Positions 12,867 to 37,778 of a DNA stretch of 49,511 bases are shown in pieces (the first letter of the stretch is position 1; each line of letters starts with the position of its first letter). The notes beneath the pieces are model-generated. The model saw only the letters and a list, made by a program, of their open reading frames with translations. It was not told where the DNA came from and made no database searches. The position numbers and the translations under genes were made by a program. Origin of the DNA: Tannerella sp. (GTDB lineage Bacteria > Bacteroidota > Bacteroidia > Bacteroidales > Tannerellaceae); NCBI GenBank assembly GCA_031276175.1, contig JAISNP010000054.1, positions 1-49,511 on the forward strand, read 5' to 3'.

Positions 12867-13119
12867 TGCAAGCGTTAGCAGGGGTAGCCTGCAAGCGTTA
12901 GCAGGGGTGTCTTGCAAGCGTTAGCAGGGGTAGCCTGCAAGCGTTAGCAGGGGTGGCCTGCAAGCGTTAGCAGGGGTGCCTTGCAAGCGTTAGCAGGGGT
13001 GGCCTGCAAGCGTTAGCAGGGGTGGCCTGCAAGCATTAGCAGGGGTGGCCTGCAAGAATTGGAGGGAGTGTCCCTCAAGCGTTAGAGAGAGTGTCTCTCA
13101 AGCGTTGGAGAGAGTGTCT
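12867..13119. repeat. tandem array of 11 x 23 bp hairpin units
   Basis: Eleven units of exactly 23 bp follow one another between permease genes 1 and 2. In units 1-8 the arms CCTGC and GCAGG flank the loop AAGCGTTA (AAGCATTA in one), then GGGTGGCC or a near variant. In units 10-11 the arms change to CTCTC/GAGAG-like sequences (for example TCTCTC and GAGAGA) while AAGCGTTA or AAGCGTTG stays. Unit 9 is a transition form. The paired change of both arms argues that folding is being kept. The array fills nearly the whole gap and sits inside what should be an operon. Confidence 0.9.
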
Positions 13120-13158
13120 CTTCAAAGGATATGGAATTATTTTTTAAAACAAGAGAAT

Positions 13159-15507
13159 ATGTTACGAGATTTTTTATTTGTCTTTAAGCGTTTTCGGACG
13201 TCCGGTCTGCTAAACGTCATAGGCCTGTCGGCAGCCTTTGCCGCCTTCATCATGATGATGATGAAAGTAAGTTATGAATATGGCTTCGACCGTTGCCATC
13301 CTGCCGCCGACCGGATTTACCGTGTCGACCTGGTGCGGGACGGGCGTCCGGTCAATATTTTGCCGCGGGCGTTTGCCGACGCCATTATCGCCTCGTCGCC
13401 GCAGATAGAAGAAGGAACGATCGTGATGCCGTTAGACGAATGGCTGGGCGATAATTACTTCACGACGGGCGAGGGCGCGGAGAGGCGCGGCTTTAACCTG
13501 CCGGTTGAAGCCTGCTACCCGGCTATTACGCGCATCTTCGGGTTTGACTTCACGGAGGGAGACGCCGACTGCCTTGCCGCGCCCCTTCAGGTGATTATCC
13601 CGCAGAGCATGGCGTAGCGCCTGTTTGCCGGGGAACCGGCTGTGGGCAAAACGCTGCATCCCGACAATATTCTGGGAAGCAATCAACCCATCACAATCGG
13701 CGGCGTGTACCGTGATTTCCCGGACAATACGCAGGTGAAAAACGTGATTTATACGTCTATCGGCCGGATGCAGCAAAACGACTGGCGGTCGCAAAACTAC
13801 CATCTGTATCTCCTGTTTAACGGGGCGAAGGAGGCGGAGGGGTTTGAGGAGCGTTTTAACCGCACGTTCGATTTCTCCCCGCTGGCCAACAATGCCGAGA
13901 ACGGCATCCGTCTGATGGCGCTGACCGACATTTATTTCAGCCGGACGGGGTTCCGGGCGGGCAACGTGGGCACGGTGCGGATACTTTTTGCGATTGCATT
14001 GCTGGTGATCGTCATTGCCGCCATCAATTACATGAATTTCAGCGTTGCCATGACGCCGGCGCGTATCCGCGGCATCAATGTGCGGAAGATTCTGGGCTGC
14101 TCTACGGCCGCGCTGCGCGCTTCCCTTGTGGGCGAAGCGCTGATTACGGCCTTGCTGTCGTGGCTGGCGGCGCTGTGTCTCGTCTATGTACTGTCGGAGC
14201 GTGAGGTACTTTCGTTCATGGAGGCGGACATGCGCCTGCAAAACCATCTCCCGCTTGTGGGGCTGACGGGGCTGGCGGCGTTGCTGACGGGGCTGGCGGC
14301 CGGACTGTATCCTGCGTTTTATACCACTTCGTTCCAGCCGGCATGGGCGTTGAAGGGCAACTTCGGGCTGTCGCCTGCCGGACGTCGCCTGCGCGCCGCC
14401 CTGATCGGCTTCCAGTACGTCGTTTCCATCTGCCTGATCATTGCCGCCCTGTTTATATACAAGCAAAACCGGTATTTGCAGGATTTCAACACGGGTTTCG
14501 ACCGCGAGCAGATTGCTATCGTCAAACTTAACGCCGACCTCTATTCCCGGAGCAGGGATTCGTACGTCAATGCGCTGAAGGCCTATGCCGGCATCGACGA
14601 CGTCGCCTTTTCGAAACAGAAACTGGGCGCTTCCGACTCTTACACGAGCTACGGCTTCCGGTACGCCGAGGGCAGTGAGTTCGGCGGATACACGCTCGAA
14701 GTGAGCGAAAACTTTCTCGACGTCATGCGCATATCCGTCGTCGATGGCCGGAGCTTTCTGCCTGCGGACACGGCCGGCGGGCGGTTTGCCTTCATACTGA
14801 ATAAGCCGCTGGCGGAACACGTCGGCATAAAAGCCGGCGAAACGGTGGAGATGACGTCGTGGGGCAATCCGGTCTGTCCGGTCGTGGGGATTACGGACGA
14901 CGTGAAGTTCACATCCCTGCGGCAGGGGCAGGATCGCATCCTGTTCTGGGTCGGCTCGCCCGCCGCGCTTCCCGTCTCGTATATCCGGTTGAAAGCCGGG
15001 GTGAATGTGTTCGACGCCGTCGATCATATCCGCCGCACGGTGGCCGACATCGACCCGGCTTATCCGGTGGACGTGGAGTTTTACGACGGCGTGTTCCGAC
15101 AATTGTACCGCAAGGAGGCGAACCTGAACCGGAGCATCTCCCTGCTCAGCCTGCTGGCCATCATCATCTCCGTTGCCGGGATATTCGGGCTGGTGCTGTT
15201 CGAAACGCAGTACCGCCGCCGGGAGATCGGCATCCGCAAGGTGTTCGGCTCCACTACCGCCGAAATCCTGTCGCTGTTCGGCAAGACGTATATCCGCCTG
15301 CTGTGCATCAGCTTCGTGCCGGCTGCGCCGATGGCATGGTATGCTGTGAGCCGGTGGATGGAAACCTTTGCCTATAAGACGCGGATGGACTGGTGGATCT
15401 ACCTGCTGGCCTTTGCCGCAGTGCTGACGCTCACGGCCGCCACCGTCGTCTTCCAAAGCTGGCGCGCAGCCGTCGCCAACCCGGCGGACAGCATCAGGAC
15501 GGAATGA
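13159..15507 (+). pseudogene. FtsX/MacB-type ABC permease 2, interrupted by in-frame TAG
   Basis: The frame starts at 13159 (MLRDFLFVFKRFRTSGLLNVIGL) and runs in one phase to a stop at 15507, about 781 residues, the size of its two neighbours. It is cut by a single TAG at 13615-13617, codon 153, in the context PQSMA-stop-RLFAGEPAVGKTLHP. Related permeases normally read a glutamate or similar residue there (SxAERLFG-like), so GAG to TAG is the simplest change. Everything after the stop is intact, including GRxL-type periplasmic parts and the coupling segment RRREIGIRKVFGSTTAEIL. The gene may be a recent null, a sequencing error or a read-through case. A 152-residue fragment and a restart at 13642 are the alternative readings. 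Confidence 0.85.
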
Positions 15508-15535
15508 TTTTACTCACGCTAATGAATGAACAGCT

Positions 15536-17899
15536 ATGAACAGATGGATGGACATTAAGTCCTTTTTCAGGTTTTTGGGCAAGAACAGGTTTTATACCCT
15601 TGTCAATGTGTTCGGCCTGTCGGTATCGCTGATGTTTGTGATACTGATAGCCGTGTATGCGATGCAGGAAATGTCGGTCGACACCTTTCATGCGAAAGGC
15701 GACCGGATTTATATTCTGGGTCGAGAAGACTCTCCCGGCGCGGCCTGGAAGCTGGGCAGTCGCCTCAAGGCGCGCTATCCCGAAATAGAAGAGACCTGCG
15801 CAACGGTCCTCGGGCGGAACGTTCCGGTGGAAATTAACGACCGCAAAGTGAAGGCCGACCTGACGCTGGCGGACAGTACGTTTTTCAACCTCTTTTCCTT
15901 CGAACTGCTCAGCGGCGACCGGCGGCAGGCGCTGGATGCGCGCAACGGGGCGGTCGTCTCCGAATCATTCGCCCGCAAGGCTTTCCCGGATACCGACCCC
16001 GTGGGGCAAACCCTCAGGTTGTACGATTCGCTCTACGTGACGGTGAACGGCGTGATGAAGGACATCCGCCGGTCGACCGTCCCCTACGCCGACATCCTGC
16101 TGCGGATTGAGCACGTGAATTATTTCAACTCAAGCCTTGCCTCGGATACGTATGGTAACTACGGCTCTACCGCGCTCTTCCTGCTGGCACGGGAACGCGC
16201 CGACCTCCGTGCACGGGAGGCCGACATGCTGGAATGGTTCAAGGAAGAGGTGTGGCTTTACAGGGACGGACATGCCGGGCAGGTGCACATCGTCCCGCTG
16301 CGGGAGCTTTATTTCGCCGACCGGTATCCGGCGTACAGGAACTACAACGGCTGGCTGCTGAACTTCGGCAACTCTTCGCTGATGACCATCCTGATGTGGG
16401 TGGGGATACTGATCCTGCTCTTTGCCGTAATCAACTACATCAACCTGACGACGGCGCAGGCCGGCTTCCGGGCGAAAGAGATGGCTGCGCGGCGGCTGCT
16501 GGGTTCGAGCCGGGCGGAGCTGTTCGTGCGGCTGATGACGGAGTCCACGCTGCTGTGCTTCGTGTCTTTCGCCGCCGGGCTGCTGCTGGCCTGCTTTGCC
16601 GCGCCGTATGCGGGGCAGCTGGTGGAGCGGCCGCTCGACCTGAACGGAGCCGTTACGCCGGGCAGCGTGGCCGTGGCAGCCGGGGTCGTCCTGCTGCTGG
16701 GCGCCGTAAGCGGGCTGTTGCCGGCGGTGGTCATCTCGAACGCCAAGCCGATAGAGATTGTGCGGGGCGGATTCCGGAGGAAAACGAAGATGACGTTCGG
16801 CAGGGTGTTCATCACCTTCCAGAACGCCGTCACCATCGTCCTTTTAGCCTCCTCCATCACCATGATTAGCCAGGTGAACCACCTGATTCGCGCGCCGCTG
16901 GGGTATCGCACGGAAAACCTGATCGACATTGCCTTTTCCCCCGGAGACAGCCGGGAGGCCAAGTTGCTGCTTGCCGAAGAGCTGAAGCGCCTGCCCGTCG
17001 TCAAACGCACCGGATTCAGCGCAGGGACGCCGTTCACCAGAGGCAACAACCAGACCATGAAACTGAGCGACGGCAAGCAGATCAGTTTCCAGCAATTCTT
17101 CTGCAACGAGGACTTCTTCGACATGATAGGGTGGGAGAAGCTGCGCGACAACCACGTGTCGGGCGAAGCCTTCTACCTGAACGAACGCGCCCTGACGGAG
17201 CTTGGAATTGCGGAAGACGCGCCGACCTTTCCCTACTACGAAGGGGTCGAGCAGGTGGCCGGCGTGGTGCGCGACTTTCAGTTGCGCAACATCACCACGC
17301 GTCCCAGCCCGGTGATGATACGGGTCATGAAACAGGAAGAACTCGCGGAGAGATATTCGGGAGGGTTTCTCTGGAACCTCGTGGTCGAGGTCGAAGGCCG
17401 GCCTGCCGCAGCCTGGAGCGCGGTGAAGGAAGTCTACGAGCGCATCATGCGCAGCGAGTTCGACGGGAAGTTTATCGACCGGCAGGTGGCTGCCTCCTTC
17501 GACGCCGAGCGTCGCACCTCGCGGATGCTGATACTCTTCACCGCCGTGGCCGTACTGATTTCGCTGCTTGGGCTGCTGGCCATGTCCACCTACTTCATCC
17601 GCCTGCGCGAGAAGGAAATTGCCGTCCGCAAGATATTCGGTTCCACCAATCCCGAAGTATTGCGGCGGATGGTGGGCACGTTCATGAGTTACGTGCTGAT
17701 AGCCTTCGCAGCGGCTGCGCCCGTGGCGTGGTACCTGATGCACCGCTGGCTGTCGGGCTACGCCTACCGGATTACGCTCGGCGTGTGGATATTTCTGGCC
17801 GCCGGCGCGTTTTGCCTGCTGGTATCGTTTGCCACCGTATTCTTCCAAAGCTATGCCGCGGCCTGCGCCAATCCGGCGGTGAGTATTAAGGCGGAATGA
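15536..17899 (+). CDS. FtsX/MacB-type ABC transporter permease 3
   Basis: This 787-residue permease has the same plan as its two upstream neighbours: N-terminal helix (FYTLVNVFGLSVSLMFVILIAVYAM), periplasmic domain with the GDRIYILGRED and DPVGQTLRLYDS strands, central helices starting FAVINYINLTTAQAGFRAKEMAARRLLGSS, a second periplasmic domain, and last helices with RLREKEIAVRKIFGSTNPEVLRRMVG. Both coupling segments are present, so it should dock on an ATPase. Permeases 2 and 3 resemble each other more than permease 1 by eye (shared VFGSTxxE and NPAxSIxxE ends), suggesting local duplication. It is the last gene of the cluster; 197 bases separate it from the next gene. Confidence 0.9.
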   Translation: MNRWMDIKSFFRFLGKNRFYTLVNVFGLSVSLMFVILIAVYAMQEMSVDTFHAKGDRIYILGREDSPGAAWKLGSRLKARYPEIEETCATVLGRNVPVEINDRKVKADLTLADSTFFNLFSFELLSGDRRQALDARNGAVVSESFARKAFPDTDPVGQTLRLYDSLYVTVNGVMKDIRRSTVPYADILLRIEHVNYFNSSLASDTYGNYGSTALFLLARERADLRAREADMLEWFKEEVWLYRDGHAGQVHIVPLRELYFADRYPAYRNYNGWLLNFGNSSLMTILMWVGILILLFAVINYINLTTAQAGFRAKEMAARRLLGSSRAELFVRLMTESTLLCFVSFAAGLLLACFAAPYAGQLVERPLDLNGAVTPGSVAVAAGVVLLLGAVSGLLPAVVISNAKPIEIVRGGFRRKTKMTFGRVFITFQNAVTIVLLASSITMISQVNHLIRAPLGYRTENLIDIAFSPGDSREAKLLLAEELKRLPVVKRTGFSAGTPFTRGNNQTMKLSDGKQISFQQFFCNEDFFDMIGWEKLRDNHVSGEAFYLNERALTELGIAEDAPTFPYYEGVEQVAGVVRDFQLRNITTRPSPVMIRVMKQEELAERYSGGFLWNLVVEVEGRPAAAWSAVKEVYERIMRSEFDGKFIDRQVAASFDAERRTSRMLILFTAVAVLISLLGLLAMSTYFIRLREKEIAVRKIFGSTNPEVLRRMVGTFMSYVLIAFAAAAPVAWYLMHRWLSGYAYRITLGVWIFLAAGAFCLLVSFATVFFQSYAAACANPAVSIKAE

Positions 17900-18016
17900 C
17901 GGATGATACGAACCGGCGCGGCACGAAAATTTCCGCCCGCCCTTTCATGCGGCGAAAAGCCGAATGTTACGAAATTATTAATTACACGAGAAAAGTTTGC
18001 GAAAACTTTCAAAAAA

Positions 18017-18049
18017 TTTGAGCAGTGTAATATTTTCCGCTTATCTTTG
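18017..18049 (+). promoter_or_regulatory. promoter of the small lipoprotein gene
   Basis: TTTG (18017-18020) and TATCTTTG (18042-18049) are separated by 21 bases, a close match to the Bacteroidota consensus. The lipoprotein ATG follows 47 bases later. Confidence 0.7.
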
Positions 18050-18096
18050 CAGCGTAAATAGAACCAATACGAATTTATTAATTAAAAAAAGACGAA

Positions 18097-18459
18097 ATGA
18101 AAAAGTATTATTCATTATTATTAGGCGTTGCAATGGTAGCGCTTGTTGCATGTGGAGGAGGTTCCAAAAGCAGCGAATCGACGGAACAGGCTGCTCCGGA
18201 GCAAACCAAGGTTGACGAAGGCGCTTCGGCGTCGAAGTCGAGTGTGTTGAGCGAATACGAAGCTTTTGTTGAGAAGGCAGTACCGTTATTGAAAAAGATG
18301 AAGTCCGGCGATACCGCCGCCGCTACGGAGTATGCCGAGCTGGCGCAGAAATTATCGGAGTTCGTAACTTCTCATTCGGAAGATTTTTCGGCGCTCTCCG
18401 GCGAAGACGTGAAAAAGTATCAGGAACTGGCACAAAAGCTAACCGATGCGGCAAACTGA
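18097..18459 (+). CDS. small lipoprotein of unknown function
   Basis: This 120-residue protein has a lipoprotein signal (MKKYYSLLLGVAMVALVACGGG) with cleavage before Cys19 or so. A Ser/Glu/Gln-rich linker follows, then a short all-helical domain (YEAFVEKAVPLLKKMKSGDTAAATEYAELAQKLSEFV). Similar small lipoproteins with a helical YExxVEK...YxxLAQ repeat are common in Bacteroidales, but no function is known to me. It has its own promoter and a good terminator, so it is a single-gene unit, probably well expressed. Confidence 0.85.
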   Translation: MKKYYSLLLGVAMVALVACGGGSKSSESTEQAAPEQTKVDEGASASKSSVLSEYEAFVEKAVPLLKKMKSGDTAAATEYAELAQKLSEFVTSHSEDFSALSGEDVKKYQELAQKLTDAAN

Positions 18460-18482
18460 TTTCCGGGGGATATGACGGATAT

Positions 18483-18517
18483 AAAAAGCGGGTATGCAAG
18501 ACATATCCGCTTTTTTT
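18483..18517 (+). terminator. intrinsic terminator after the small lipoprotein gene
   Basis: AAAAGCGGGTATG pairs with CATATCCGCTTTT around the loop CAAGA, with one G-T pair, and runs into seven T. Confidence 0.85.
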
Positions 18518-18574
18518 ATCGTTCCGCACGCCGGACGTTGAGCCGCGGAATATATCCGCACGCCGGTATCCTGA

Positions 18575-18712
18575 TTAGATACGTCGCGGTAGCTCGCTTA
18601 GATACGCCGCGGTAGCTAACTTAGATACGCATCGGTAGCTAACTTAGATACGCACCGGTAGCTAACTTAGATACGTCGCGGTAGCTAACTTAGATACGCC
18701 GGCGTATCAGGC
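18575..18712. repeat. tandem array of five full and one partial 23-bp units
   Basis: Units start TTAGATACG, carry a variable four-base block (TCGC, CCGC, CATC, CACC, TCGC) and end GGTAGCTAAC (GGTAGCTCGC in the first). Across unit junctions GTAGCTAA-C-TTAGATAC is a near palindrome. The partial sixth unit ends in a perfect 16-base palindrome, GATACGCCGGCGTATC (18693-18708). The array lies between a terminator and the surE promoter. Confidence 0.88.
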
Positions 18713-18758
18713 CGGGATACGCGGACGGCAAAAAATCATCCCCCGGAACAGGCCTGAT

Positions 18759-18790
18759 ATTGACTGCTGTATTTAAAATGCTTACTTTTG
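18759..18790 (+). promoter_or_regulatory. promoter of surE-lpxB
   Basis: ATTG (18759-18762) and TACTTTTG (18783-18790) are 20 bases apart. This puts the transcript start after the earliest in-frame ATG at 18788 and favours a surE start at 18806 or 18815. Confidence 0.6.
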
Positions 18791-18814
18791 CGACTTATTT
18801 TGCAGATGACCGGA

Positions 18815-19594
18815 ATGGACAATAACATACCATTGATTTTGATTACAAACGACGACGGCATAAATGCGAAAGGCCTCAAACAGCTTACCGCGAGCCTGCG
18901 TGGCCTTGGGCGGCTGGTCGTATTTGCGCCGGACGGGCCGCGTTCGGGCATGTCGTGCGCCATTACGTCGAACGTGCCCCTGACCTGTACGCTGATGCAG
19001 GAGTCGGACGAACTGACCGTGTACCGCTGTTCGGGTACGCCGGTCGACTGTGTGAAACTTGCCGTCAACGAGATACTCGACCGTACGCCCGACCTGCTGG
19101 TGTCGGGCATCAATCACGGAGGCAACGAGGCCGTCTGCGTGCACTATTCCGGCACGATGGGGGCAGTGATAGAGGGCTGCGTGATCGGCATCCCCTCGCT
19201 GGGGGTGTCGCTGTCGGGCTGTACCCCCGATGCCGGCTTTGCGGAATCGGGACGGCTGGGGCGGACGGTTGCGCGTCAGACGCTCGCGCAAGGCCTGCCG
19301 CGCGGCACCTGCCTGAACCTGAACGTGCCGAACGTGAAGGGCCGGGTGAAGGGCATTGCCGTTTGCCGGCAGACCGAGGGGCGGTGGGTGAACGAGTTCG
19401 ACCGCGAAACGGACAGGGACGGGCGGGTGCGGTACAGGCTGGCAGGCGATTTCGTACCCGTCGCACCTCCGCGCCCCGACAACGATACGCTGGCGCTGGA
19501 CAGGGGGTATGCTTCGCTGGTGCCGTGTCGTATAGACATGACGGACTACGCGTTTGCGGAGACGCTGAAGGCGTGGGATTTTTCTAACGAATGA
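18815..19594 (+). CDS. surE: 5'/3'-nucleotidase SurE
   Basis: SurE is a metal-dependent nucleotidase that removes phosphate from nucleoside monophosphates. The 259-residue protein begins [15 protein letters not shown]; the paired Asp of [11 protein letters not shown] are metal ligands, followed by [38 protein letters not shown] (metal-binding Asn) and [11 protein letters not shown]. Length is normal for the family. A start at 18806 would add MTG. The lpxB start lies 4 bases after its stop, so the two are cotranscribed, an arrangement often seen in Bacteroidota. Confidence 0.95.
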
Positions 19595-19598
19595 AGAT

Positions 19599-20753: not shown

Positions 20754-20782
20754 CTCCTTCGCCGTCCTGCGGGGTATGTTAC

Positions 20783-21571: not shown

Positions 21572-21589
21572 TCCTGTAATTTGAGGCGG

Positions 21590-21621
21590 CAAAGATAACG
21601 GATAATTCCGTAGCCGGCAAA
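21590..21621 (-). promoter_or_regulatory. promoter of the HAD phosphatase gene
   Basis: On the minus strand TATCTTTG (21597-21590) is preceded by TTTG (21621-21618) with a 20-base spacer, a close consensus match. Confidence 0.65.
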
Positions 21622-21692
21622 TCCGCCGCCTTCCGGACATCCACACGGAACCCCGCGCCGACTTTTTTATTCCCGTTCAGTAAAAAAATAAC

Positions 21693-21700
21693 TAACTTTG
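21693..21700 (+). promoter_or_regulatory. -7 box of the amidase-MCE unit
   Basis: TAACTTTG fits TAnnTTTG and lies 28 bases before the amidase ATG. No clear TTTG is seen at the -33 spacing. Confidence 0.4.
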
Positions 21701-21728
21701 CCGGCGTACTCGAAAGAGTGAAATAAAA

Positions 21729-22820: not shown

Positions 22821-22876
22821 AACGACAGCTACAAAATCAATAATAACCGCACGCATCTGTGCACAACAAAATCAAT

Positions 22877-24117: not shown

Positions 24118-25503
24118 ATGCAATTAGACTACAAATCATTATGGAGCGAGTGTTTGACCGTTATCAAAGGTGTGGTGTCCGAAACAACCTATGAGACATG
24201 GTTTCGTCCCATTATTCCCATTTCGTATCAGGACAAGAAAATCACGGTGCAGGTGCCCAGTCAGTTCTTTTATGAATATCTGGAAGAAAAGTATATTCAC
24301 ATATTGCACATGTCGCTTGAACGTGTTTTCGGTATGGGCACATCTCTGAGTTACCGCGTAGTAGTCGGAAACCAGACAGGCTTGCCCGTGACGGACGGTC
24401 ATATCGAAAAAAACGGAAAGCAAACGGTAAATATATCAATGACTCCATTCACGCAAATCGCGCCGCAAGAGTTGGACTCCCAGCTTGTTTCCAGATATAC
24501 GTTTGATAATTTCTTTGAAGGAACAAGCAACAACCTGGCGCGAAGCACAGGTTTGTCCATCGCCGAAAAACCCGGTAAAACAGCATTCAATCCGCTGTTT
24601 ATCTATGGAGATACGGGAGTAGGTAAAACTCATCTGTGCCACGCTATCGGCTTGTGCACGCGTGAACTCCATCCCGAAAAACGCGTCTTATACGTGTCGT
24701 CCCATCTTTTCCGCGTTCAGTTTACGGATGCCGTCCGCAAAAATACAACGAACGACTTTCTGACTTTCTATCAAAGCCTCGACGTCCTCATTATGGATGA
24801 CATACAGGAATTTATCGGGATGGACAAAACACAGCATATTTTTTTTCAAATATTTAATAACCTGCACCAGTTAGGGAAACAAATCGTTCTGACATCGGAC
24901 AAACCACCCGTAGCATTACAGGGAATAGAAGCCCGGCTTATCACCCGTCTGAAATGGGGATTGACGGCAAAAATAGAACGTCCCGATTATGAATTGAGAA
25001 AACAAATATTAAGGCATTTAATTGAAGAAGAAAACATTGACATCGACAGCAACGTATTCGACTACATTGTTGAACACGTAACGGAAAACGTCCGCGATTT
25101 GGAAGGCGTCTTAATCTCGGTATCGGCAAATTCGCGTATAAACAAGAAAAAAATAGATATGTCGTTAGTACAAGAAGTCATCAGTCAAATGGTTATGATA
25201 GAGAATCATCAAATCTCCATTGAAAAGATAACCAAATTGGTATGTGAGCATTTCAACATGGACGAATCGCAGATTCAAACCTCTTCACGAAAAAGAGAAA
25301 TCGTTCTGGCACGCCAGATATGCATGTATTTAACCAAGAAATATACGGATCACTCGCTTGCGTATATTGGGAGAAAAATCGGCGGAAAAGATCATGCTAC
25401 CGTTCTGCACTCAATTAATGCTATAAAAAACCAGATGGAAACAGACAAATCTTTCAATGCCATGATTGAATCTATTGAACGCAAATCTAAAAGTAAAATA
25501 TAA
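24118..25503 (+). CDS. dnaA: chromosomal replication initiator DnaA
   Basis: DnaA binds origin boxes, forms an ATP-dependent helix and melts the origin. The 461-residue protein has domain I (about 1-85, helicase loading, with SLWSECLTVIKG and TYETWFRPI), a short linker, AAA+ domain III with Walker A GDTGVGKT (164-171), Walker B LIMDD (224-228), sensor RLITRLKWGL, and domain IV ending with the DNA-binding signature DHSLAYIGRKIGGKDHATVLHS. Length and all motifs are normal. The start follows an A-rich stretch, AACAACAAAAAAAG, without a strong Shine-Dalgarno, as usual in this phylum. Confidence 0.98.
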   Translation: MQLDYKSLWSECLTVIKGVVSETTYETWFRPIIPISYQDKKITVQVPSQFFYEYLEEKYIHILHMSLERVFGMGTSLSYRVVVGNQTGLPVTDGHIEKNGKQTVNISMTPFTQIAPQELDSQLVSRYTFDNFFEGTSNNLARSTGLSIAEKPGKTAFNPLFIYGDTGVGKTHLCHAIGLCTRELHPEKRVLYVSSHLFRVQFTDAVRKNTTNDFLTFYQSLDVLIMDDIQEFIGMDKTQHIFFQIFNNLHQLGKQIVLTSDKPPVALQGIEARLITRLKWGLTAKIERPDYELRKQILRHLIEEENIDIDSNVFDYIVEHVTENVRDLEGVLISVSANSRINKKKIDMSLVQEVISQMVMIENHQISIEKITKLVCEHFNMDESQIQTSSRKREIVLARQICMYLTKKYTDHSLAYIGRKIGGKDHATVLHSINAIKNQMETDKSFNAMIESIERKSKSKI

Positions 25504-25532
25504 TTCCCTAATCCCTCTAATTCTTTATTTCT

Positions 25533-25794: not shown

Positions 25795-25827
25795 TTTGTA
25801 CGGCAAGTGAAATAATCCATATCTTTG
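25795..25827 (+). promoter_or_regulatory. promoter of nrdJ
   Basis: TTTG (25795-25798) and TATCTTTG (25820-25827) are 21 bases apart, a near-perfect consensus match 20 bases before the ATG. No cobalamin riboswitch-like structure was recognised in the short leader. Confidence 0.7.
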
Positions 25828-25847
25828 CGGCAGGTAAAATTTATATT

Positions 25848-28379: not shown

Positions 28380-28398
28380 CAAACAGGGGCAACGGCAA

Positions 28399-31080: not shown

Positions 31081-31164
31081 GTATTCGATCACAAGTTTAC
31101 TTTTTATTAAATTATTATTTTCAATATTTAAGGACAAACAATGTGGAAAAGTGCATTTTTTTCA

Positions 31165-31626
31165 GCAAAAAACACATGTGTTAGGGCAAAAAACACGTGT
31201 TTTGGAGCTGAAAACGTATGTTTTGGGGCAAAAAACTCGTGTCTCAGGGCTGAATACGCATGTTTTTAGGCAAAAAACTCGTTTTTTTGAACTAAAAACT
31301 CATGTTTTAGGGCTAAAAACTCGTGTCTTTATCGTAAAGACTCGTGTTTTTATCACAAAGACTCGTGTTTTTGTCGTAAAAACACGTGCTTTTGTTGTAA
31401 AGACTCGTGTCTTTGTTGTAAAGACTCGTGTTTTTGTCTCAAAGACTCGTGTTTTTATCGTAAAGACTCGTGTTTTTGCTGTAAAGACACGTGTCTTTGT
31501 CGTAAAGACACGTGTCTTTGTTATAAAGACTCGTGTTTTCGTCGTAAAAACACGTGTTTTTGTCTTAAAGACTCGTGTTTTTGGCGTAAAGACACGTGTT
31601 TTTTGGTGAAAGACTCGTGCTTCTTG
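31165..31626. repeat. tandem array of 22 x 21 bp palindromic units
   Basis: Twenty-two units of exactly 21 bp, with no slippage, each centre on ACxCGTGT between A-rich and T-rich arms. The clearest units read AAAGACACGTGTCTTT, a perfect 16-base palindrome. Linkers differ along the array: units 1-8 mostly use GG-GC joins, units 9-22 mostly TGT-CGT. Because 21 is a multiple of three, the array leaves an open frame on the plus strand (31151-31609, heptads like KTRVFVV). That frame would start with GTG and shows no domain, so it is judged a by-product. Right after it, ATAAACGAG (31630-31638) pairs with CTCGTTTAT (31665-31673). Confidence 0.92.
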
Positions 31627-31847
31627 ATCATAAACGAGGGGTTTTTTAACATATACGCTGTTTTCTCGTTTATCATAGCTGTCTTTCGGGCGGTTTTTCT
31701 CCTTTTGCCGTATTAATTTTTAGTTTTTTCGGCAATAATTATTGTTTAAAGCGGCAGGGGGTTGATTGTATCCCGGATTCGGGCAGGTTTTTTCCGGGTA
31801 TTCTTGCATTAAGTGCAGTTAGTATAATTTATGTGAATAGTATTTAA

Positions 31848-32152
31848 TGATTATCCGCAAATCGACCGGAGAGAAACGGTCGGAAACTGTTGTGATGATG
31901 CCGTTGCAAAAGCCGTTACGGCACAGGTTGACGCAGAGGCGGAGCCGGCTGCCGACGATTCGACAGCGTATGCAAGTCGGGCAGGGATGTAAAATCGCTT
32001 GAGGCGCATGTTGTAGCGGCAAAATATAGCCCGAAGATATTTCCCCGGGCAGATGCGGCCGTCGGTAAGTCAAACGGCTGCAAGAAGCAGCCGTTTCATA
32101 CGATACCGATGTGAAGTCGAAAATTTATAGCAAGTCGCTTTGCGGATAATCA
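31848..32152. repeat. 305-bp element bounded by a perfect 14-bp inverted repeat
   Basis: TGATTATCCGCAAA (31848-31861) recurs in exact inverted form as TTTGCGGATAATCA (32139-32152). Inside are two further hairpins, CGACCG/CGGTCG near 31862-31881 and AACGGCTGC-AAGAA-GCAGCCGTT near 32070-32095. No gene is seen inside. It abuts the bactofilin stop at 32157. The form is that of a small non-autonomous mobile element or a structured RNA; no second copy is in the window. Confidence 0.55.
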
Positions 32153-32156
32153 CATT

Positions 32157-32591
32157 TTATTTCCGCTGTGGGGCGGCGGGGACGGAAAACGCGGTTTCAT
32201 TCGTCGTTTCATCGTCGTTTCCCAACGGATTCTCTCCCGACATTGTGCAGGTGCCGTTGAACTGGGCGCCCGGTTCAATCTCAAGCGTCTGGATAAATAT
32301 GTCGCCCCTGATGATTGCTGTGGATTTGAAGACCAGTTTTTCTCTGATTCTCACGGTGCCTTCCACTTCGCCCAATATTTCCGCATTTTCGGAACGGATG
32401 TTTCCTTTGATGCTTCCTTTCGGCCCGATGACGATTTTGCCTTTGCAGGTAATGTCGCCTTCTATCCGTCCGTCCAGACGAAAATCGGATACCGTGAGCA
32501 CACTGCCCTTGACTGAAGTTCCTACTGCCAATACATTGAGCATTCCGCCGTTACCGGAAGGCGTTTCTTCGTTTTGTTTTGTACGTACCAT
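32157..32591 (-). CDS. bactofilin (polymer-forming cytoskeletal protein)
   Basis: This 144-residue protein has a short flexible N-terminus (MVRTKQNEETPSGNGGM) and a central right-handed beta-helix built from repeats such as FRLDGRIEGDITCKGKIVIGPKGSIKGNIRSENAEILGEVEG. A flexible tail follows the core. Bactofilins polymerise without nucleotide on or near the inner membrane and position cell-wall or division proteins. Length and N/C-tails are typical. The gene stands alone on the minus strand, divergent from folB. Confidence 0.93.
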   Translation of the reverse strand: MVRTKQNEETPSGNGGMLNVLAVGTSVKGSVLTVSDFRLDGRIEGDITCKGKIVIGPKGSIKGNIRSENAEILGEVEGTVRIREKLVFKSTAIIRGDIFIQTLEIEPGAQFNGTCTMSGENPLGNDDETTNETAFSVPAAPQRK

Positions 32592-32613
32592 AGAGTGTTT
32601 GTTTATATTTCCG

Positions 32614-32621
32614 CAAATGTA
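32614..32621 (-). promoter_or_regulatory. -7 box of the bactofilin gene
   Basis: On the minus strand the bases read TACATTTG, fitting TAnnTTTG, 23 bases before the start codon. No convincing -33 element is seen. Confidence 0.4.
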
Positions 32622-32680
32622 GCAAAAAAAGCAATCCGCCCATTTTTTTCATTACCTTTACGCAATCTTTTTTACATTAT

Positions 32681-33043
32681 ATGAAAACGATGATTGAACT
32701 GAAATCAATGAGGTTTCATGCTTTTCACGGCGTTTCTCCGCAGGAAAGGAAAGTCGGCAATGATTTTGCGGTTGACATTGAATATACTTCCGCCTGCATC
32801 GAAAAAGCCGCAGGGAGCGACAGTTTGGACGATACGGTCAGCTATGCGGATGTATACCGGATGGTGAAAGAGGAGATGAGTATGCCGTCGGGGTTGCTCG
32901 AAAATCTTGCGGGGCGCATGTTGTCTGCGTTAAAAGCGCGTTTCCCTCAACTTGCATACATTAAAATAAAGGTATCCAAGCTTTGTCCGCCGCTGGGAGG
33001 CGAAGTGCACAGCGCTTCGGTTACGCTCGAAGAGTGCTGGTAA
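32681..33043 (+). CDS. folB: dihydroneopterin aldolase
   Basis: FolB converts dihydroneopterin to 6-hydroxymethyl-dihydropterin in folate synthesis. The 120-residue protein shows MRFHAFHGVSPQERKVGNDFAVDIEYT (family opening, with the pterin-site residues), DSLDDTVSYADVYRMVKEEM (conserved Tyr/Asp segment), LLENLAGRM and the catalytic-region Lys in YIKIKVSKLCPPLGGEVHSASVTLEE. Length is normal. Start at 32681 or 32690 (MIELKSM) are both possible. The rhomboid genes begin 150 bases later behind their own promoter. Confidence 0.95.
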   Translation: MKTMIELKSMRFHAFHGVSPQERKVGNDFAVDIEYTSACIEKAAGSDSLDDTVSYADVYRMVKEEMSMPSGLLENLAGRMLSALKARFPQLAYIKIKVSKLCPPLGGEVHSASVTLEECW

Positions 33044-33147
33044 CAGGCGCAAGGGTACGGACGGACGGCACGACGGGCGAAGGTTTTTCGGCTCCTGCGT
33101 AAGGCCTCCGTATTTGAATTTGACATTTTTACAGAAATTTGAGTGGC

Positions 33148-33174
33148 TTGTTCGAACTTAATGATATATTTTTG
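33148..33174 (+). promoter_or_regulatory. likely promoter of the rhomboid operon
   Basis: TATTTTTG (33167-33174) fits the -7 consensus; a TTG at 33148-33150 is 16 bases upstream, somewhat close. It rules out a rhomboid start before 33175. Confidence 0.4.
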
Positions 33175-33192
33175 CCCAAAAACAGAATACGA

Positions 33193-33888
33193 ATGGAACA
33201 GTTTCAAAAAACAGGCTTTTTAAGCAGTATTCCGCCTGTAACTAAAAATCTTATTATAATCAATCTGCTGTGCTGGGTGGCAAGTATTGCGTTGCCCAAA
33301 GTGAATATCGACATGATCGGTTTGTTCGGGCTGCATTTTCCCGGCACATCGGATTTCCGGTTTTTCCAGTTTTTCACCTATATGTTTATGCACGATACAC
33401 ATTCTTTCGAACATGTTTTTTTCAACATGTTTGCTGTGTATATGTTCGGAAATGTCCTTGAGCAGGTCTGGGGTCCGAAGCGTTTTTTGCTGTTCTATCT
33501 CGTGACGGGACTTGGCGCGGCGATTACGCAGGAACTGGCCTGGCTCTGGTCTATTCAGTCCGTGGCTTCGGCCAATCAGATAAGCATTGCCGCGCAACTG
33601 GCTTTCGACCCTAACGTGCATCTTCTGGTAACGGTAGGGGCGTCCGGCGCTGTGTTCGGAATCTTGCTTGCCTTCGGGATTTTATTCCCCAATATGCCGT
33701 TATACATTATCTTTATACCGATTCCCATCAAGGCAAAATATTTCGTGACGGGCTACGGATTAATCGAGCTGTTTTTGGGGATAGCCAACTTCGGAGGAGA
33801 TAATGTGGCGCATTTTGCTCATCTGGGCGGGATGGTTTTCGGGTTTTTCATGATTATGTACTGGCGGAGGAAGATCGGTAATGGATGA
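33193..33888 (+). CDS. rhomboid-family intramembrane serine protease 1
   Basis: This 231-residue inner membrane protease would cut transmembrane segments of other proteins. It has six hydrophobic segments, the loop/helix HSFEHVFFNMFAVYMFGNVLE (rhomboid HxxxN region), catalytic GASGAVFG with Ser151, and HFAHLGGMVFG with catalytic His210. The start MEQFQKTGFL at 33193 is chosen because the longer frame crosses the promoter. The next rhomboid gene overlaps its end by 8 bases, so the pair is translated together. Confidence 0.93.
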   Translation: MEQFQKTGFLSSIPPVTKNLIIINLLCWVASIALPKVNIDMIGLFGLHFPGTSDFRFFQFFTYMFMHDTHSFEHVFFNMFAVYMFGNVLEQVWGPKRFLLFYLVTGLGAAITQELAWLWSIQSVASANQISIAAQLAFDPNVHLLVTVGASGAVFGILLAFGILFPNMPLYIIFIPIPIKAKYFVTGYGLIELFLGIANFGGDNVAHFAHLGGMVFGFFMIMYWRRKIGNG

Positions 33889-34762
33889 TATCCTTGTTAA
33901 AATAAAACGTTTTTACGTGCAGGGAAGTATGTCGACCAAATTGATCTTTATCAATGTGGCGGTGTTTTTGGGTATGCGCCTGTTTTTTGTTGCGGCGACG
34001 CTGTTCGGGGCGGGCGACGGCGATTTCCTCGGCTACCTGCAGATGCCTTCGTCGCCGGAGCGGTTTATTTACCGCCCGTGGACGATACTGACGTATATGT
34101 TCCTGCATGTCGATTTTCTTCATATACTGTTCAACATGCTTTGGCTGTACTGGTTCGGGAACATATTCCTGCGGTTTTTCAGCGGGCGGCATCTGGGAGG
34201 GATCTACGTGCTGGGGGGGATTGCAGGGGCGCTGATGTTTATGGCTGCATATAACATTTTCCCCTACTTCAGAGATCCCGTGCGGCAGGACAACCTGCTT
34301 ATGGGCGCGTCGGCATCGGTGATGGCCATCGTCTTTGCCGTTTCTTTCTACCGGAAGGATTATGAGATAAATCTGCTGATTGTGGGGCGTATCAAACTGG
34401 TGTACCTTGCCCTGTTCGTGTTGCTGATTGATTTGCTGTCCGTCACGTCCGAGAATGCGGGCGGGCATATTGCGCATCTGGGAGGGGCTTTGTTCGGCAT
34501 CTTTTTTACCCTCCGGTTTCGCAGGGGGACGGATTTGACCGCGGCGATTAATCGGATGATAGACCGGGCGGTCAATCTGTTTAAGCGGAAACCGCACATG
34601 AAAGTAACTTACAAGCGTGCGGAAACGGATATGGAATATAACGCGCGGAAGCGGGACGAGATGGAAAAATTAGACGCCATACTGGACAAGCTGAAACGTT
34701 CGGGCTACGAAAGTTTATCGGCAGAGGAGAAGAAGACGCTTTTTAACGCAAGCAGGAGATAG
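33881..34762 (+). CDS. rhomboid-family intramembrane serine protease 2
   Basis: This 293-residue protein has the same six-helix core: FLHVDFLHILFNMLWLYWFGNIFL, GASASVMAIVFA with the predicted catalytic Ser144, and HIAHLGGALFG with His199. It also has a cytoplasmic tail of about 75 charged residues (YKRAETDMEYNARKRDEMEKLDAILDKLKRSGYESLSAEEKKTLF), which resembles the short helical tail found on many Bacteroidota rhomboids. Both catalytic residues are kept, so both members of the pair look active. It overlaps the upstream rhomboid gene by 8 bases and is followed after 3 bases by the phosphatase-fold gene. A run of seven G lies at 34213-34219. Confidence 0.92.
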   Translation: MDDILVKIKRFYVQGSMSTKLIFINVAVFLGMRLFFVAATLFGAGDGDFLGYLQMPSSPERFIYRPWTILTYMFLHVDFLHILFNMLWLYWFGNIFLRFFSGRHLGGIYVLGGIAGALMFMAAYNIFPYFRDPVRQDNLLMGASASVMAIVFAVSFYRKDYEINLLIVGRIKLVYLALFVLLIDLLSVTSENAGGHIAHLGGALFGIFFTLRFRRGTDLTAAINRMIDRAVNLFKRKPHMKVTYKRAETDMEYNARKRDEMEKLDAILDKLKRSGYESLSAEEKKTLFNASRR

Positions 34763-34765
34763 GAG

Positions 34766-35866
34766 ATGAAACCGCTCGGCTTCTTTCACCGCGTAATGCT
34801 GATGCTGAACATGATCGTGATGCTGCTCTTTGTGGTGGCGGCATATTCGTATCTTGTTTCGCCGAAGCAAAGTGTCGTTTTCCCGTTCCTTGGGCTGATG
34901 TTTCCCGTGTTTATGGTTGCGAATTTGTTTTTTACGGTCTACTGGCTGTGTTTCCGCAAATGGCTGCGTTTCCTTGTGGTGGTGTTTTCTTTTTTGATTT
35001 GCTGGAAGTCCGTGTCGAGCTATGTGCCGATACACATACCGCACGCCGAAGCGCCGGCGAAGGGTGTGATAAAAATATTAAGCTACAACGTGATGGGATT
35101 CGGCTACAAAGATCATACGGCGAAAAAGCCCAATCCGATTCTCCGCTACATTATTGATTCGGGCGCCGACATCGTCTGCCTGCAGGAGTACATGACCGGA
35201 ATTTCGCCCGACGGCATACTTACGGAAAAGAAGATAAGGGACGCCCTCAAGATGTATCCCTACTACTATAAGTTGCCGCTGACCCGTAATGCCCGCTACA
35301 CTGTCGGGCTGGGGATTTTTTCGAAATATCCGATTCTCAAGTCGCGCAAGGTACGTTACGACAGCGCGTTCAACGGCTCTACCCTCCACGAGATCCGGGT
35401 CGACGGCAAGACGGTATACGTGATAAACAACCACCTGGAGTCGTTCAAACTGACGATGGGCGACCGCTCCCGTTACGCGGAGTTCATCGGCAGCATCAGC
35501 TCCGGCGTGTCCGACAATTTGATTGAAACGATGCAGCGCAAGCTCGGCGCCGCGTTCCGTATCCGCGCCGAGCAGGCCGAAATTGTCGCCGAGGAGATTG
35601 CGGCGCTCAAGGACGAGCGCATTGTGGTGTGCGGCGATTTCAACGACACCCCCGTTTCGTACGCCTACCGTACGGTGCGCGGCCGGCTGTCCGACGCCTT
35701 CGAAGAATCGGGGTGCGGCGTGGGCGCCACGTACAACCAGAATTTTTTCCGCTTCCGGCTGGATCATATCCTTTTTTCGCAGCACATCTCGGTTTGCGAA
35801 ACGAAGATCGACAGGATTCCTTTCTCGGATCACTATCCCGTCTGGTGCAGGGTGGAGATACGGTAG
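34766..35866 (+). CDS. membrane-anchored endonuclease/exonuclease/phosphatase family protein
   Basis: This 366-residue protein has two or three N-terminal hydrophobic segments (to about residue 85) and then an EEP catalytic domain: ILSYNVMGFG (metal Asn), DIVCLQEYM (metal Glu), VINNHLES (catalytic His region), VVCGDFNDTPVSYAYR (Asp and Asn), RLDHILFS and FSDHYPVWCRVEI (final Asp-His pair). The full active site is present. The domain would lie on the periplasmic side if the helices insert as usual. In Bacteroidota this architecture is frequently next to rhomboid genes, as here. The substrate could be a phospholipid, sugar phosphate or nucleic acid; the sequence does not decide. Confidence 0.9.
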   Translation: MKPLGFFHRVMLMLNMIVMLLFVVAAYSYLVSPKQSVVFPFLGLMFPVFMVANLFFTVYWLCFRKWLRFLVVVFSFLICWKSVSSYVPIHIPHAEAPAKGVIKILSYNVMGFGYKDHTAKKPNPILRYIIDSGADIVCLQEYMTGISPDGILTEKKIRDALKMYPYYYKLPLTRNARYTVGLGIFSKYPILKSRKVRYDSAFNGSTLHEIRVDGKTVYVINNHLESFKLTMGDRSRYAEFIGSISSGVSDNLIETMQRKLGAAFRIRAEQAEIVAEEIAALKDERIVVCGDFNDTPVSYAYRTVRGRLSDAFEESGCGVGATYNQNFFRFRLDHILFSQHISVCETKIDRIPFSDHYPVWCRVEIR

Positions 35867-35971
35867 ACGTACGAAAAAACAGCGCCGGGGATTTTCTTCC
35901 CTTACTTTTTGCCGCGCGCGAAGGGAGTGCGCGAAAATCGATACCTTTGCAGGATTAAAGAAAAAGCGCTT

Positions 35972-36964
35972 ATGAAGAATTTTTTGCTGCTGCCTGTTTT
36001 GTGTGCGATGATGTCGTGCGGCGGGCAAACGTATTATTACGAAGAGACGGGAAACGTTTTCCATACCTACTACAGGATTAAATACCGGTCGGAACGTATT
36101 TTGACGAACGAAATCGAAACCGAACTCCGCGCCTTCGATCTTTCGCTGAACCCGTTCAATCCCAATTCTACGGTGGCGAAGGTGAACCGCAACGAAGACA
36201 CGGAGGTGGACGCATGGTTTGCCTCGGTGTTTACAAAAGCCATGGAAGTGTCGGAAAAGTCGGGCGGCCTTTTCGACGTCACGGCCGCGCCGCTGATCAA
36301 CGTCTGGGGATTCGGTTTTGAGCGGAAAGACAGCGTTACGCCGCACGTGCTGGACAGCCTCAAGACCTTTGTCGGCTACCGGAAGGTGCGCCTCGAAGGC
36401 AACCGCGTGGTGAAAGACGATCCGCGCCTGATGCTCAACTTTTCGGCCATCGCCAAGGGATATGCCTGCGACGTAGTGGCCGCCGCGCTCGAACGCGAGG
36501 GGGTGAAGGACTACATGATCGACATCGGCGGCGAGGTAGCCGTAGCGGGGCTGAATCCCCACGGCGAATGTTGGCGGATAGGCATCAACACGCCTGAAGA
36601 AGGGGCGCCCGCAACGGAAGACCACCTGAGCGAGATCGTCCGGCTGTGCCGCAAGTGCGGGATGGCCACGTCGGGGAACTACCGTAACTTTTACGTGAAA
36701 GACGGGAAACGATATGCCCACACGATAAATCCCTCGACAGGCTATCCTTCCGAAAACACCATCCTCAGCGCCACAATCGTAGCGCCGGACTGCATGACGG
36801 CCGATGCCTACGCCACGGCATTCATGGTCATGGGAGCCGAAGACGCTCGCCGAATGGCCGAAGGTATCCCCGAAATCGCTTACTACATCATCTGCACCGG
36901 CGCAGACGGGAACGACGAGGTCTTGTATTCCGCCACGATGGAAGAGATGATTGGGAAGCGATGA
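35972..36964 (+). CDS. apbE: FAD:protein FMN transferase (ApbE lipoprotein)
   Basis: ApbE attaches FMN to threonine residues of periplasmic flavoproteins such as NqrB/NqrC or RnfG. The start at 35972 gives a lipoprotein signal MKNFLLLPVLCAMMSCGG. The 330-residue protein contains FDLSLNPFNPNSTVAKVN, GGLFDVTAAPLINVWGFG, LMLNFSAIAKGYACDVVAAALE (metal/FAD loop), DIGGEVAVAGLNP and ATSGNYRNFY...YAHTINPSTGYPSENTILSATIVAPDCMTADAYATAFMVMG, where the Asp/Thr-containing segments bind magnesium. A TACCTTTG box lies at 35942-35949. No flavoprotein target gene is adjacent. Confidence 0.94.
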   Translation: MKNFLLLPVLCAMMSCGGQTYYYEETGNVFHTYYRIKYRSERILTNEIETELRAFDLSLNPFNPNSTVAKVNRNEDTEVDAWFASVFTKAMEVSEKSGGLFDVTAAPLINVWGFGFERKDSVTPHVLDSLKTFVGYRKVRLEGNRVVKDDPRLMLNFSAIAKGYACDVVAAALEREGVKDYMIDIGGEVAVAGLNPHGECWRIGINTPEEGAPATEDHLSEIVRLCRKCGMATSGNYRNFYVKDGKRYAHTINPSTGYPSENTILSATIVAPDCMTADAYATAFMVMGAEDARRMAEGIPEIAYYIICTGADGNDEVLYSATMEEMIGKR

Positions 36965-37325
36965 ACCCGGACAAATGCAAGCGGCAACAGTGCATATAAA
37001 AAAAGCAGGCATATTCCCGGCAATCGCCGGAAAACATACGTGAGATAAAAACAATCTCCTGCATGTTTTTTTCATCCGTACACCCGAAAAATGCAGTCCC
37101 ACGGTTGCCTTTGTCCCGGGCGTTGCGGTGCACGGCGCCATCACGGAAGGCGTGCTGTCCGGCATCCGGGGCTGTCTCAAAAGCATAACGCCCCTTTATT
37201 TATTTTTCATATCCATTAAATTCGGCAACTTGACCGCATAAAATAAAAGACATGGCTAAAACGAATGTTTTTCCTGTGTCTTTTCATTGCTTTTCGCCCG
37301 GTTTGCCGAAAATCGGTCAAACTAA

Positions 37326-37522
37326 ACTGTACGCAGTATCGTCTTGTGCATTGCCCGTCAGGGCATTCCTGTCAACAGAAAAGCGCATCTGCCAAAGCGC
37401 CTCATTGCCCGTCAGGGCATTCACTTGCTGTGTATGACTCCCCTGAACGGGGAACAGGGAAGGCGGGGCGACCGATATTTCTCAGGGCTGCTTTCATTGC
37501 ACAAAACCATGCCGCGAAAAGT
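37326..37522. repeat. palindrome-ended repeat, copy A
   Basis: The copy begins ACTGTACGCAGTATCGTC (arm 37326-37350) and ends with a diverged complement of that arm (37498-37522; 18 of 25 bases pair). Inside are two TGCCC-GTCA-GGGCA hairpins and a CCCCTGAACGGGG segment. Copy B at 37779-37950 has the same order of parts. Confidence 0.7.
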
Positions 37523-37539
37523 GTAAGCCCCGACGACAG

Positions 37540-37770
37540 GAACTCAAGTCCCTGCGACGCGGACTCAAGTTCCTGCGACGCGAACTTGAGTCCCTGCGAC
37601 GCGTACTCAAGTTCCTGCGGCGCGAACTTGAGTTCCTGCGACGCGTACTCAAGTTCCTGCGGCGCGGACTTGAGTCCCTGCGATGCGTACTCAAGTTCCT
37701 GCGGCGCGGACTTGAGTCCCTGCGACGCGTACTCAAGTTCCTGCGGCGCGGACTTGAGTTCCTGCGATGC
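37540..37770. repeat. tandem array of 11 x 21 bp units with alternating core orientation
   Basis: Every unit is 21 bp with a constant C-rich half (CCTGCGACGC or CCTGCGGCGC) and an eight-base core. From unit 2 on the core alternates ACTCAAGT, ACTTGAGT, ACTCAAGT and so on; the two are reverse complements. Neighbouring units therefore form ten-base-pair stems such as ACTCAAGTTC/GAACTTGAGT around nine-base loops, about five in a row. It lies between copies A and B. An open frame across it (Ser/Cys/Asp-rich heptads) follows from the 21-bp period and is not called. Confidence 0.92.
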
Positions 37771-37778
37771 GAACTTAC

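Follow-up and report, generated by a model that had tools for sequence, protein, structure and literature searches.

The closest published kind of element to the arrays described here is BrickBuilt, an intergenic MITE of Porphyromonas gingivalis in which tandem 23-nt repeats without spacers, from 1 to 22.8 per copy, lie between a conserved leader and tail with TIRs (PMC4596501). It is described with 12-nt IS5-like TIRs and short direct repeats, predicted stem-loops with mention of dyad symmetry, promoter elements with a capability for bidirectional transcription, and, in strain ATCC 33277, a single family of repeats spread over 19 loci (PMC4596501). The same paper describes PgRS/MITE464, a P. 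gingivalis MITE with 41-nt tandem repeats (PMC4596501). The BOX elements of Streptococcus pneumoniae, of 67-637 bp, have a similar modular plan, boxA-(boxB)n-boxC, the likeness being one of plan (PMC3049150). They belong to another phylum and have another sequence. The boxB module, about 45 bp in length, is one repeat family rather than a 21-23-bp palindrome whose arms change. REP/BIME and REPIN can be set beside our arrays by description, being short palindromic repeats that are mostly intergenic, and REPINs are defined by RAYT transposases. Both are defined by GTAG/CGTC tags (PMC3733652, PMC3116915).

With regard to BrickBuilt, the window (the whole stretch of 49,511 nucleotides of Tannerella sp. 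DNA that was analysed) comes from the same order, its arrays are likewise intergenic, and families A and B of its genome share the modular plan, the comparison being by description and not by sequence. However, BrickBuilt as described is one family, whereas here the palindromes fall into several families unrelated in sequence, the 21-bp class predominates and arms covary. The repeat length of PgRS/MITE464 is that of the 41-bp arrays found in L025 (of the same genome as the window), G004 and G041, a likeness of length alone.

The arrays of the window

TRF recovers all four arrays to which the earlier note had drawn attention, and one further weak array.

12867..13121, no strand assigned: array 1, 23 bp x 11 units
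18575..18722, no strand assigned: array 2, 23 bp x about 6, unit TTAGATACGCCGCGGTAGCTAAC
31165..31627, no strand assigned: array 3, 21 bp x 22 units
37540..37775, no strand assigned: array 4, 21/42 bp x 11 units, alternating as 42
45107..45193, no strand assigned: further weak array, 23 bp x 3.6 by TRF, near a family A TIR at 44918-44934

The units of the window arrays keep register when printed out, and all four noted arrays lie outside the genes predicted by a simple purpose-made gene caller, so that the note was right in taking them as real, periodic and outside predicted genes.

Array 1 starts 43 bp past the stop codon of an FtsX/MacB-type permease gene, and its hairpin arms flank an RRGTG loop: several of units 1-8 are GCAGG-GGTGG-CCTGC, and units 9-11 are GAGGG-AGTGT-CCCTC and GAGAG-AGTGT-CTCTC. 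Array 2 is flanked by surE and by a gene for a small lipoprotein-like product. In G007 there is also a 23-bp array ahead of surE, which had the look of a reused site; we make no claim of orthology, since its sequence differs and tblastn finds no hit in G007 for the lipoprotein and FtsX proteins encoded upstream in the window. In array 3, downstream of a 4-alpha-glucanotransferase gene, the unit is a AAAGACACGTGTCTTT-type palindrome plus a 5-bp spacer. Array 4 consists of near-palindromes GAACTTGAGTTC / GTACTCAAGTTC with an alternating centre, which to the eye is GAACT..AGTTC with the centre flipping every 21 bp.

Dyad symmetry had been claimed for all four. When whole arrays are compared with column-permuted arrays this holds for array 1 (p=0.005), array 2 (p=0.020) and array 3 (p=0.005), unlike array 4, which is not significant at period 21 (p=0.189) and where the symmetry is seen by eye only. 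The weak array at 45107-45193 gives p=0.31. The four had also been called unrelated, and indeed show no likeness to one another by blastn (best pairwise E = 0.82), but arrays 1-3 each have relatives elsewhere in the genome. Those of array 1 are at G000 C104, C46 and C131, array 2 is 75% similar to an array at L018 1510, and array 3 matches C88 weakly and has sister arrays at C74, C120 and C108, with which it shares no flanking sequence.

Near array 4 there are the following features.

36960..37092, no strand assigned: one-unit family B element (unit palindromic, 21 bp), directly after an apbE-type gene
37168..38029, no strand assigned: TIR-bounded block of 862 bp, ends GGGGCTGTCTCAAAA / TTTTGGGACAGCCCC, 93% complementary
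37323..37522, + strand: family C copy left of array 4, with TIR-like ends, the right border set by eye
37775..37954, + strand: family C copy right of array 4

The block encloses array 4 and the two family C copies, one on each side; for arrays 1-3 an enclosing element is conjectural. Family C, a dispersed MITE-like repeat, is matched at 26 places in this genome, among them the two copies of the window.

A class of arrays in this genome and other Bacteroidales

The note had proposed a class of element rather than chance, and wider sampling bears this out. In 355,720 bp of the same genome there are 37 arrays at period 20-24/41-46 and 2 at other periods (periods 12-60 being covered), and the class density is about 10 arrays per 100 kb sampled, with periods mostly 21, 23 or 41-42. 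Higher-order periods of 42/63/84 bp are also seen, and 22-bp arrays occur in Phocaeicola oris and G041. In 121 kb sampled from P. loveana, a relative of P. gingivalis, there were 0 such arrays.

A first dyad score, taken from TRF consensus units, had low sensitivity (p<0.05 in 5/33 arrays of this genome) and gave way to the permutation test on whole arrays, which in its first run gave 22/36 arrays at p<=0.05. Over all samples 52/99 class arrays have significant dyads, the other 47 falling short of p<=0.05, against 0/22 tandem repeats of other periods, and enrichment was seen in the period class alone, both in this genome and in the other Bacteroidales sampled. The RRGTG loop between arms is found in 4/15 arrays of period 22-24 from this genome and genus, and in 0/16 arrays of G041.

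With regard to coding sequence, 33/38 arrays have at most half of their length in a predicted ORF, and the other 5 overlap what by eye look like N-terminal extensions of repeat peptide (3) or 74-aa all-repeat ORFs (2). We reject coding repeats, as 23 cannot be divided by 3 and in view of the nature of these in-ORF cases. The arrays would have been a matter of chance had periods been random, dyads not enriched and arrays equally frequent within genes; the samples show none of these. They are also not CRISPR arrays, as in the 13 that were printed the whole unit repeats with nothing unique between units.

Ordinary neutral minisatellites, formed by replication slippage with nothing specific to palindromes, would give the variation from 1 to 18 units described below for family A, and the higher-order periods. 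However, such slippage predicts broad periods where we find clustering at 20-24 and 41-46, and predicts no palindromy where dyads mark the class and its arms covary, and we regard it as a very unlikely origin. That the arrays are artefacts of assembly is extremely improbable: a class array stands at the start or end of contigs L022 and L024, a 54-bp tandem repeat at the end of L010, and contig ends cut 3 family A copies, but other arrays, with diverged units, lie inside contigs, arrays recur in other genomes including the cultured species Phocaeicola oris, and the P. gingivalis counterpart is already published.

The note had proposed that the period is two helical turns, with symmetric sites on one face of the DNA for a cooperatively binding protein, which would be a nucleoid or regulatory protein. 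Spacing in the 21-bp arrays of this genome is well kept, with 385 substitutions to 7 indels in 26 arrays, the 41-bp arrays are 2 x 20.5, and dyad cores are present. As a control the flanks of elements gave 257 substitutions to 7 indels on the left (about 25 bp beyond the element included) and 74 to 13 on the right, with a pooled p=0.005, the control being a weak one. But in the array-rich G041 spacing is looser, with 200 substitutions to 20 indels in 12 arrays, and two turns fit neither the 23-bp class nor the 22-bp arrays of P. oris and G041. No single recognition sequence was found across the sites, given the best E of 0.82 among the four arrays and the differing arms of neighbouring units; palindromes differ among loci, among copies of an element and between adjacent units, and a protein would have to read symmetry or structure and not sequence. 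With sequences that differ and a 23-bp class that does not stay in phase, a helically phased binding array is unsupported, and we consider this part of the note unlikely to be correct.

The position of arrays relative to genes bears on a role at RNA level, in which transcribed chains of hairpins would terminate transcription or stabilise 3' ends. BOX and BrickBuilt are both discussed as transcribed (PMC3049150, PMC4596501). Among the 23-bp arrays 8/9 are 13-116 bp from the nearest stop codon, convergent gaps tend toward over-representation (8/26 arrays against 10/79 gaps of 150 bp or more, p=0.07), and in the one-unit family B element of the window a T run follows the stem as read by eye. Against this, 4/26 arrays lie between divergent genes, and for periods 21, 22 or 42 the nearest stop codon is 121-1093 bp away in 9/17 arrays, and in another 4 neither neighbouring gene runs toward the array. 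On the sense strand G-U mismatches number 21 and A-C mismatches 25, in a weak test that covered arrays with arms of 4 or more and pairs at least 50% complementary; there is no excess and hence no sign of selection on RNA hairpins, and this lack of RNA-strand bias would also fit a DNA-level role such as protein binding. No array in the window, L221, L230 or L236 matches Rfam at the gathering threshold. We consider it unlikely that the arrays are RNA-level elements. The lone Rfam match in that search is a DUF805 RNA at window 49270-49338, outside any array.

Unit number and arm covariation in families A and B

Families A and B both have tandem repeats in variable number between a conserved leader and tail. 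The left half of family A is present in at least 15 genome copies (40/75 candidates scored), 14 of which cover 114-131 of the 131 query bases. Copies are at different places in the genome with nearly identical borders, and the 12 uncut by a contig end have 1, 1, 1, 2, 2, 2, 4, 8, 12, 13, 13 and 18 units, the 3 cut copies being left out of the series. Family A is MITE-like, and its long TIRs bound an element that has the array as its interior. Among the 7 copies with both ends located by script, direct repeats are exact in 3, at 10, 9 and 8 bp, and imperfect in one more, at 8 bp; in the other 3 they are absent or unreadable, one of these being L235, where the script set the right end wrongly. 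The TIR and the 8-10-bp direct repeats are unlike the 12-nt IS5-like TIRs and short direct repeats in the description of BrickBuilt. In G004, arrays near a family A TIR appear by eye to sit outside the TIRs.

In family B the six resolved copies have 1 (the window copy), 4, 4, 6, 9 and 14 units, partial matches at C126 and C96 being outside this set. Both arms of the palindrome change together. In 26 distinct inner units (38 units less 11 first or last units and one duplicate row) and 6 pairs, 89.7% of cells pair with G-U counted, compared with 40-56% when partners are slid, and the covariation score is 0.67 compared with at most 0.29 in slid controls. The outermost pair, which pairs in 9/27 units only, was left out of these figures. 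With all 14 units and 7 pairs of the L230 copy there are 13 compensatory cells for 6.7 expected, and in a sample of 27 arrays from this genome the count is 42 for 16.8 expected.

Origin and significance of the arrays

Period and palindromy are conserved while sequence varies, which indicates structure-driven amplification or selection and is in our view unusual for bacterial repeats. We think it probable that the arrays are minisatellites built of short palindromic units, and that in at least some cases they form the expandable internal module of small MITE-like elements that are non-autonomous and intergenic. Recombination or slippage between neighbouring units would account for their gain and loss. 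Each unit may fold as a DNA hairpin or cruciform in which one arm is recopied from the other; alternatively or additionally, selection on the folded form could keep the arms complementary. Hairpin-templated repair of arms is what we infer, and selection would yield identical covariation. The unit length of 20.5-23 bp would then be set by this step of folding and copying and not by one sequence-specific protein.

A more general form has an activity in Bacteroidales turning any suitable palindrome into an array, with a 20.5-23-bp ruler and recopying of arms, independent of sequence, dependent on structure and acting in several element families and genera; we hold this to be unlikely. The other suggestion of the note, that a single amplification mechanism acts on any palindrome, survives best, in the form of gain and loss of units inside MITE-like elements, though this does not account for the length ruler.

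The kind of element is already known; what looks new is that there are many families unrelated to each other, that a 21-bp class exists and that arms covary, and in open-licence PMC full text we recognised no earlier account of a 21-bp class or of covarying arms. What is a single element in P. gingivalis appears to be an instance of a broader class in the Bacteroidales. The arrays should serve as strain-typing loci; some in the present assembly are at contig ends. Family A is a ready series of 1-18 units in otherwise similar elements, and gain and loss of units and effects on neighbouring genes are thus measurable.

The window arrays and the period class

TRF recovers all four tandem arrays of the window, which are confirmed as real, plus a weak fifth at 45107. 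The four are:

12867-13121, array 1, 23 bp
18575-18722, array 2, 23 bp
31165-31627, array 3, 21 bp
37540-37775, array 4, 21/42 bp

Much of what the earlier note said of them is borne out, as the units hold register in aligned rows, all four lie outside predicted genes, and they have no common sequence (best pairwise match E 0.82). Dyad symmetry had been claimed for all four: when whole-array palindromy is compared with that of column-permuted arrays, it is significant in arrays 1, 2 and 3 (p 0.005, 0.020 and 0.005) but not in array 4 (p 0.189). The 72- and 89-bp tandem repeats at 44541-44778, with an inner near-palindrome AAGTCCCGCAGGGACGGCACTT, are apparently another mosaic repeat.

The window is one entire contig (C16, 49,511 bp) of a 2.79 Mb genome in 145 contigs, from which 20 further stretches were sampled, about 306 kb (355,720 bp with the window), with four contigs (C42, C46, C104 and C131) picked for matching array 1 or its flank. 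With 2.5 copies and a score of 70 as minimum, the sample has 37 arrays with periods of 20-24 or 41-46 bp, the period class, against 2 of other periods within 12-60; three arrays with periods 62, 72 and 84 fall outside the count. Without the four picked contigs, and with periods in multiples of 21, 22 or 23 bp at score 80, there are 30 arrays in 291,829 bp, or about 10 per 100 kb. The mean overlap of arrays with predicted ORFs is 13%, against 81% ORF coverage of the sample, and the five arrays located in ORFs are by eye apparent repeat-peptide N-terminal extensions or 74-aa all-repeat ORFs. For the 23-bp class the nearest stop codon is 13-116 bp away in 8 of 9 arrays, which fits a candidate 3'-end role or a tolerated insertion. 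Arrays stand at the contig edge at the start of stretch L022 and the ends of L024 and L010, and three copies of the dispersed family A described below are cut by contig ends, so the assembly may undercount arrays.

Palindromy, period and related species

Period and palindromy are linked within our samples. With all samples pooled, 52/99 period-class arrays have dyads at p<=0.05 in the permuted-column test and 0/22 tandem repeats of other periods do (Fisher p about 1e-6, with unit lengths that differ between the groups and unequal power). The proposal that such arrays are a class of element rather than chance survives this check of period and dyad enrichment, which the earlier note had proposed and which was made here on samples rather than whole genomes.

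Period-class arrays with dyad p<=0.05, and number of other-period repeats, by sample
Own genome: 24/37; 2
Same-genus stretches: 7/14; 5
G041 ('uncultured Parabacteroides'): 12/24; 0
Five cultured species and two MAGs: 4/9; 1
Other named loci: 5/14; 13
Other families: 0/1; 1

Arrays of 20, 21, 23 or 41 bp occur in 7 of 20 same-genus species (one to four stretches each, score at least 80), palindromic by eye and of differing sequence. G041, with SurE 59% identical, equals this genome in array richness (24 arrays in 181 kb), and several of its 41-42 bp units contain two different palindromes with centres, measured by eye, 20.5-21 bp apart. The 80 kb sampled of Phocaeicola oris contain five arrays of 22 bp and one of 42 bp, and an equal length of B. 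fragilis contains a single 22-bp array; there were no arrays in the 121 kb sampled of P. loveana, and stretches of 15 other-family genomes gave 1 array in 294 kb.

Elements around the arrays and their precedents

A genome search with one array's flank as query identified family A, a MITE-like element with at least 15 copies sharing one left half. It has long terminal inverted repeats (TIRs) and border sequences that are nearly alike, with inner palindromes differing from copy to copy. Unit number also differs between copies of one element, the 12 copies with an array clear of a contig end having 1, 1, 1, 2, 2, 2, 4, 8, 12, 13, 13 and 18 21-bp units. Direct repeats are exact in 3 of the 7 copies with both ends located (10, 9 and 8 bp) and imperfect (8 bp) in one more; of the three copies without, one had its right end wrongly assigned by the script. 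The family A TIR is present at five loci in another genome, G004, with 21-bp arrays within about 500 bp at four (one weak, score 55) and no array near the fifth, and these arrays appear to sit outside the TIRs. At locus L239 a further 21-bp array, of GGAGTTAACTCCG type, comes after the right part of a family A copy, an arrangement that suggests nested arrays.

The window itself has the following, the TIR ends being in inverted orientation:

492-508 (+), family A-type TIR end
6353-6369 (-), family A-type TIR end
36960-37092, one-unit copy of family B

The two TIR ends bracket an RND efflux operon (OEP, AcrB-type and HlyD-type genes) and may be single insertions at either end of it. Copies of family B elsewhere in the genome have 4, 4, 6, 9 and 14 units. 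Within an 862-bp block with 15-bp TIRs, array 4 has on each side a copy of a third dispersed repeat, family C, an internal piece of which has undergone a 54-bp tandem expansion of 6.5 copies at L010 12932-13283. No enclosing element was detected for arrays 1-3; array 3 has units, and not flanks, in common with three other loci.

This kind of element is already known from the precedents of BrickBuilt and BOX. BrickBuilt of P. gingivalis is an intergenic MITE with predicted stem-loops, in which a leader and a tail enclose 1-22.8 tandem repeats of 23 nt; PgRS/MITE464 has 41-nt repeats, and strain W83 has 22-, 23- and 41-nt repeats (PMC4596501). BrickBuilt is mentioned in two later papers (PMC5771137, PMC10969869), and BOX shares the modular plan (PMC3049150). 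In the passages of these papers that were consulted and in literature searches we found no prior description of so many families, of a 21-bp class, of arms that covary or of a period-palindromy link, and to that extent these look new.

Covariation of palindrome arms and possible mechanism

The palindrome arms covary. One slot of family B holds CATCTC/GAGATG, CAAAAA/TTTTTG, ATTCC/GGAAT, GCTTC/GAAGC or ATCCC/GGGAT. Pairing, scored at 6 pairs in 26 distinct inner units, reaches 89.7% of cells, compared with 40-56% once partners are slid by 1-3 columns; the covariation score is 0.67, compared with at most 0.29. A separate count (27 inner units, 7 pairs) agrees: 145/189 cells are Watson-Crick and 39 are compensatory against 13.9 expected. 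The units are related by duplication, and shuffles therefore overstate significance. Over 27 own-genome arrays there are 42 compensatory cells against 16.8 expected. Array 1 and one array of genome G007 have an RRGTG loop in common, with flanking arms that differ yet are complementary. Among mismatches, G-U is not favoured over A-C on the sense strand (21 against 25), a result that points to a cause at the DNA level.

The earlier note had offered either a protein-binding face repeated every two helical turns or one amplification mechanism acting on any palindrome. The 21-bp arrays of this genome have 385 substitutions and 7 indels (26 arrays), and 12 arrays of G041 have 200 substitutions and 20 indels; indels are rare here but not in G041, which contradicts strict helical phasing as a general rule. 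We infer that recombination or slippage would add or remove whole units, that hairpin or cruciform templating would restore the arms, and/or selection keep them, and that unit length would derive from the arm-restoring step.

The dnaA gene is at 24118-25503, 5.7 kb from array 3, but since arrays are found at many sites across the genome sample, array 3 is not tied to an origin. For YchF the closest named loci among the best 80 matches are in a Dysgonamonadaceae MAG (83%), a Bacteroidia genome (81%) and a Candidatus Symbiothrix MAG (81%), and some of these genomes come from termite guts. A locus of the MAG Tannerella sp. Cd354_bin75 (L031) is found letter for letter inside L144, a contig of the same-genus genome G009, and on this match the two are probably one genome. 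The sole Rfam match in the window at gathering threshold is the DUF805 RNA motif (RF03081, 78 bits) at 49270-49338 (-).
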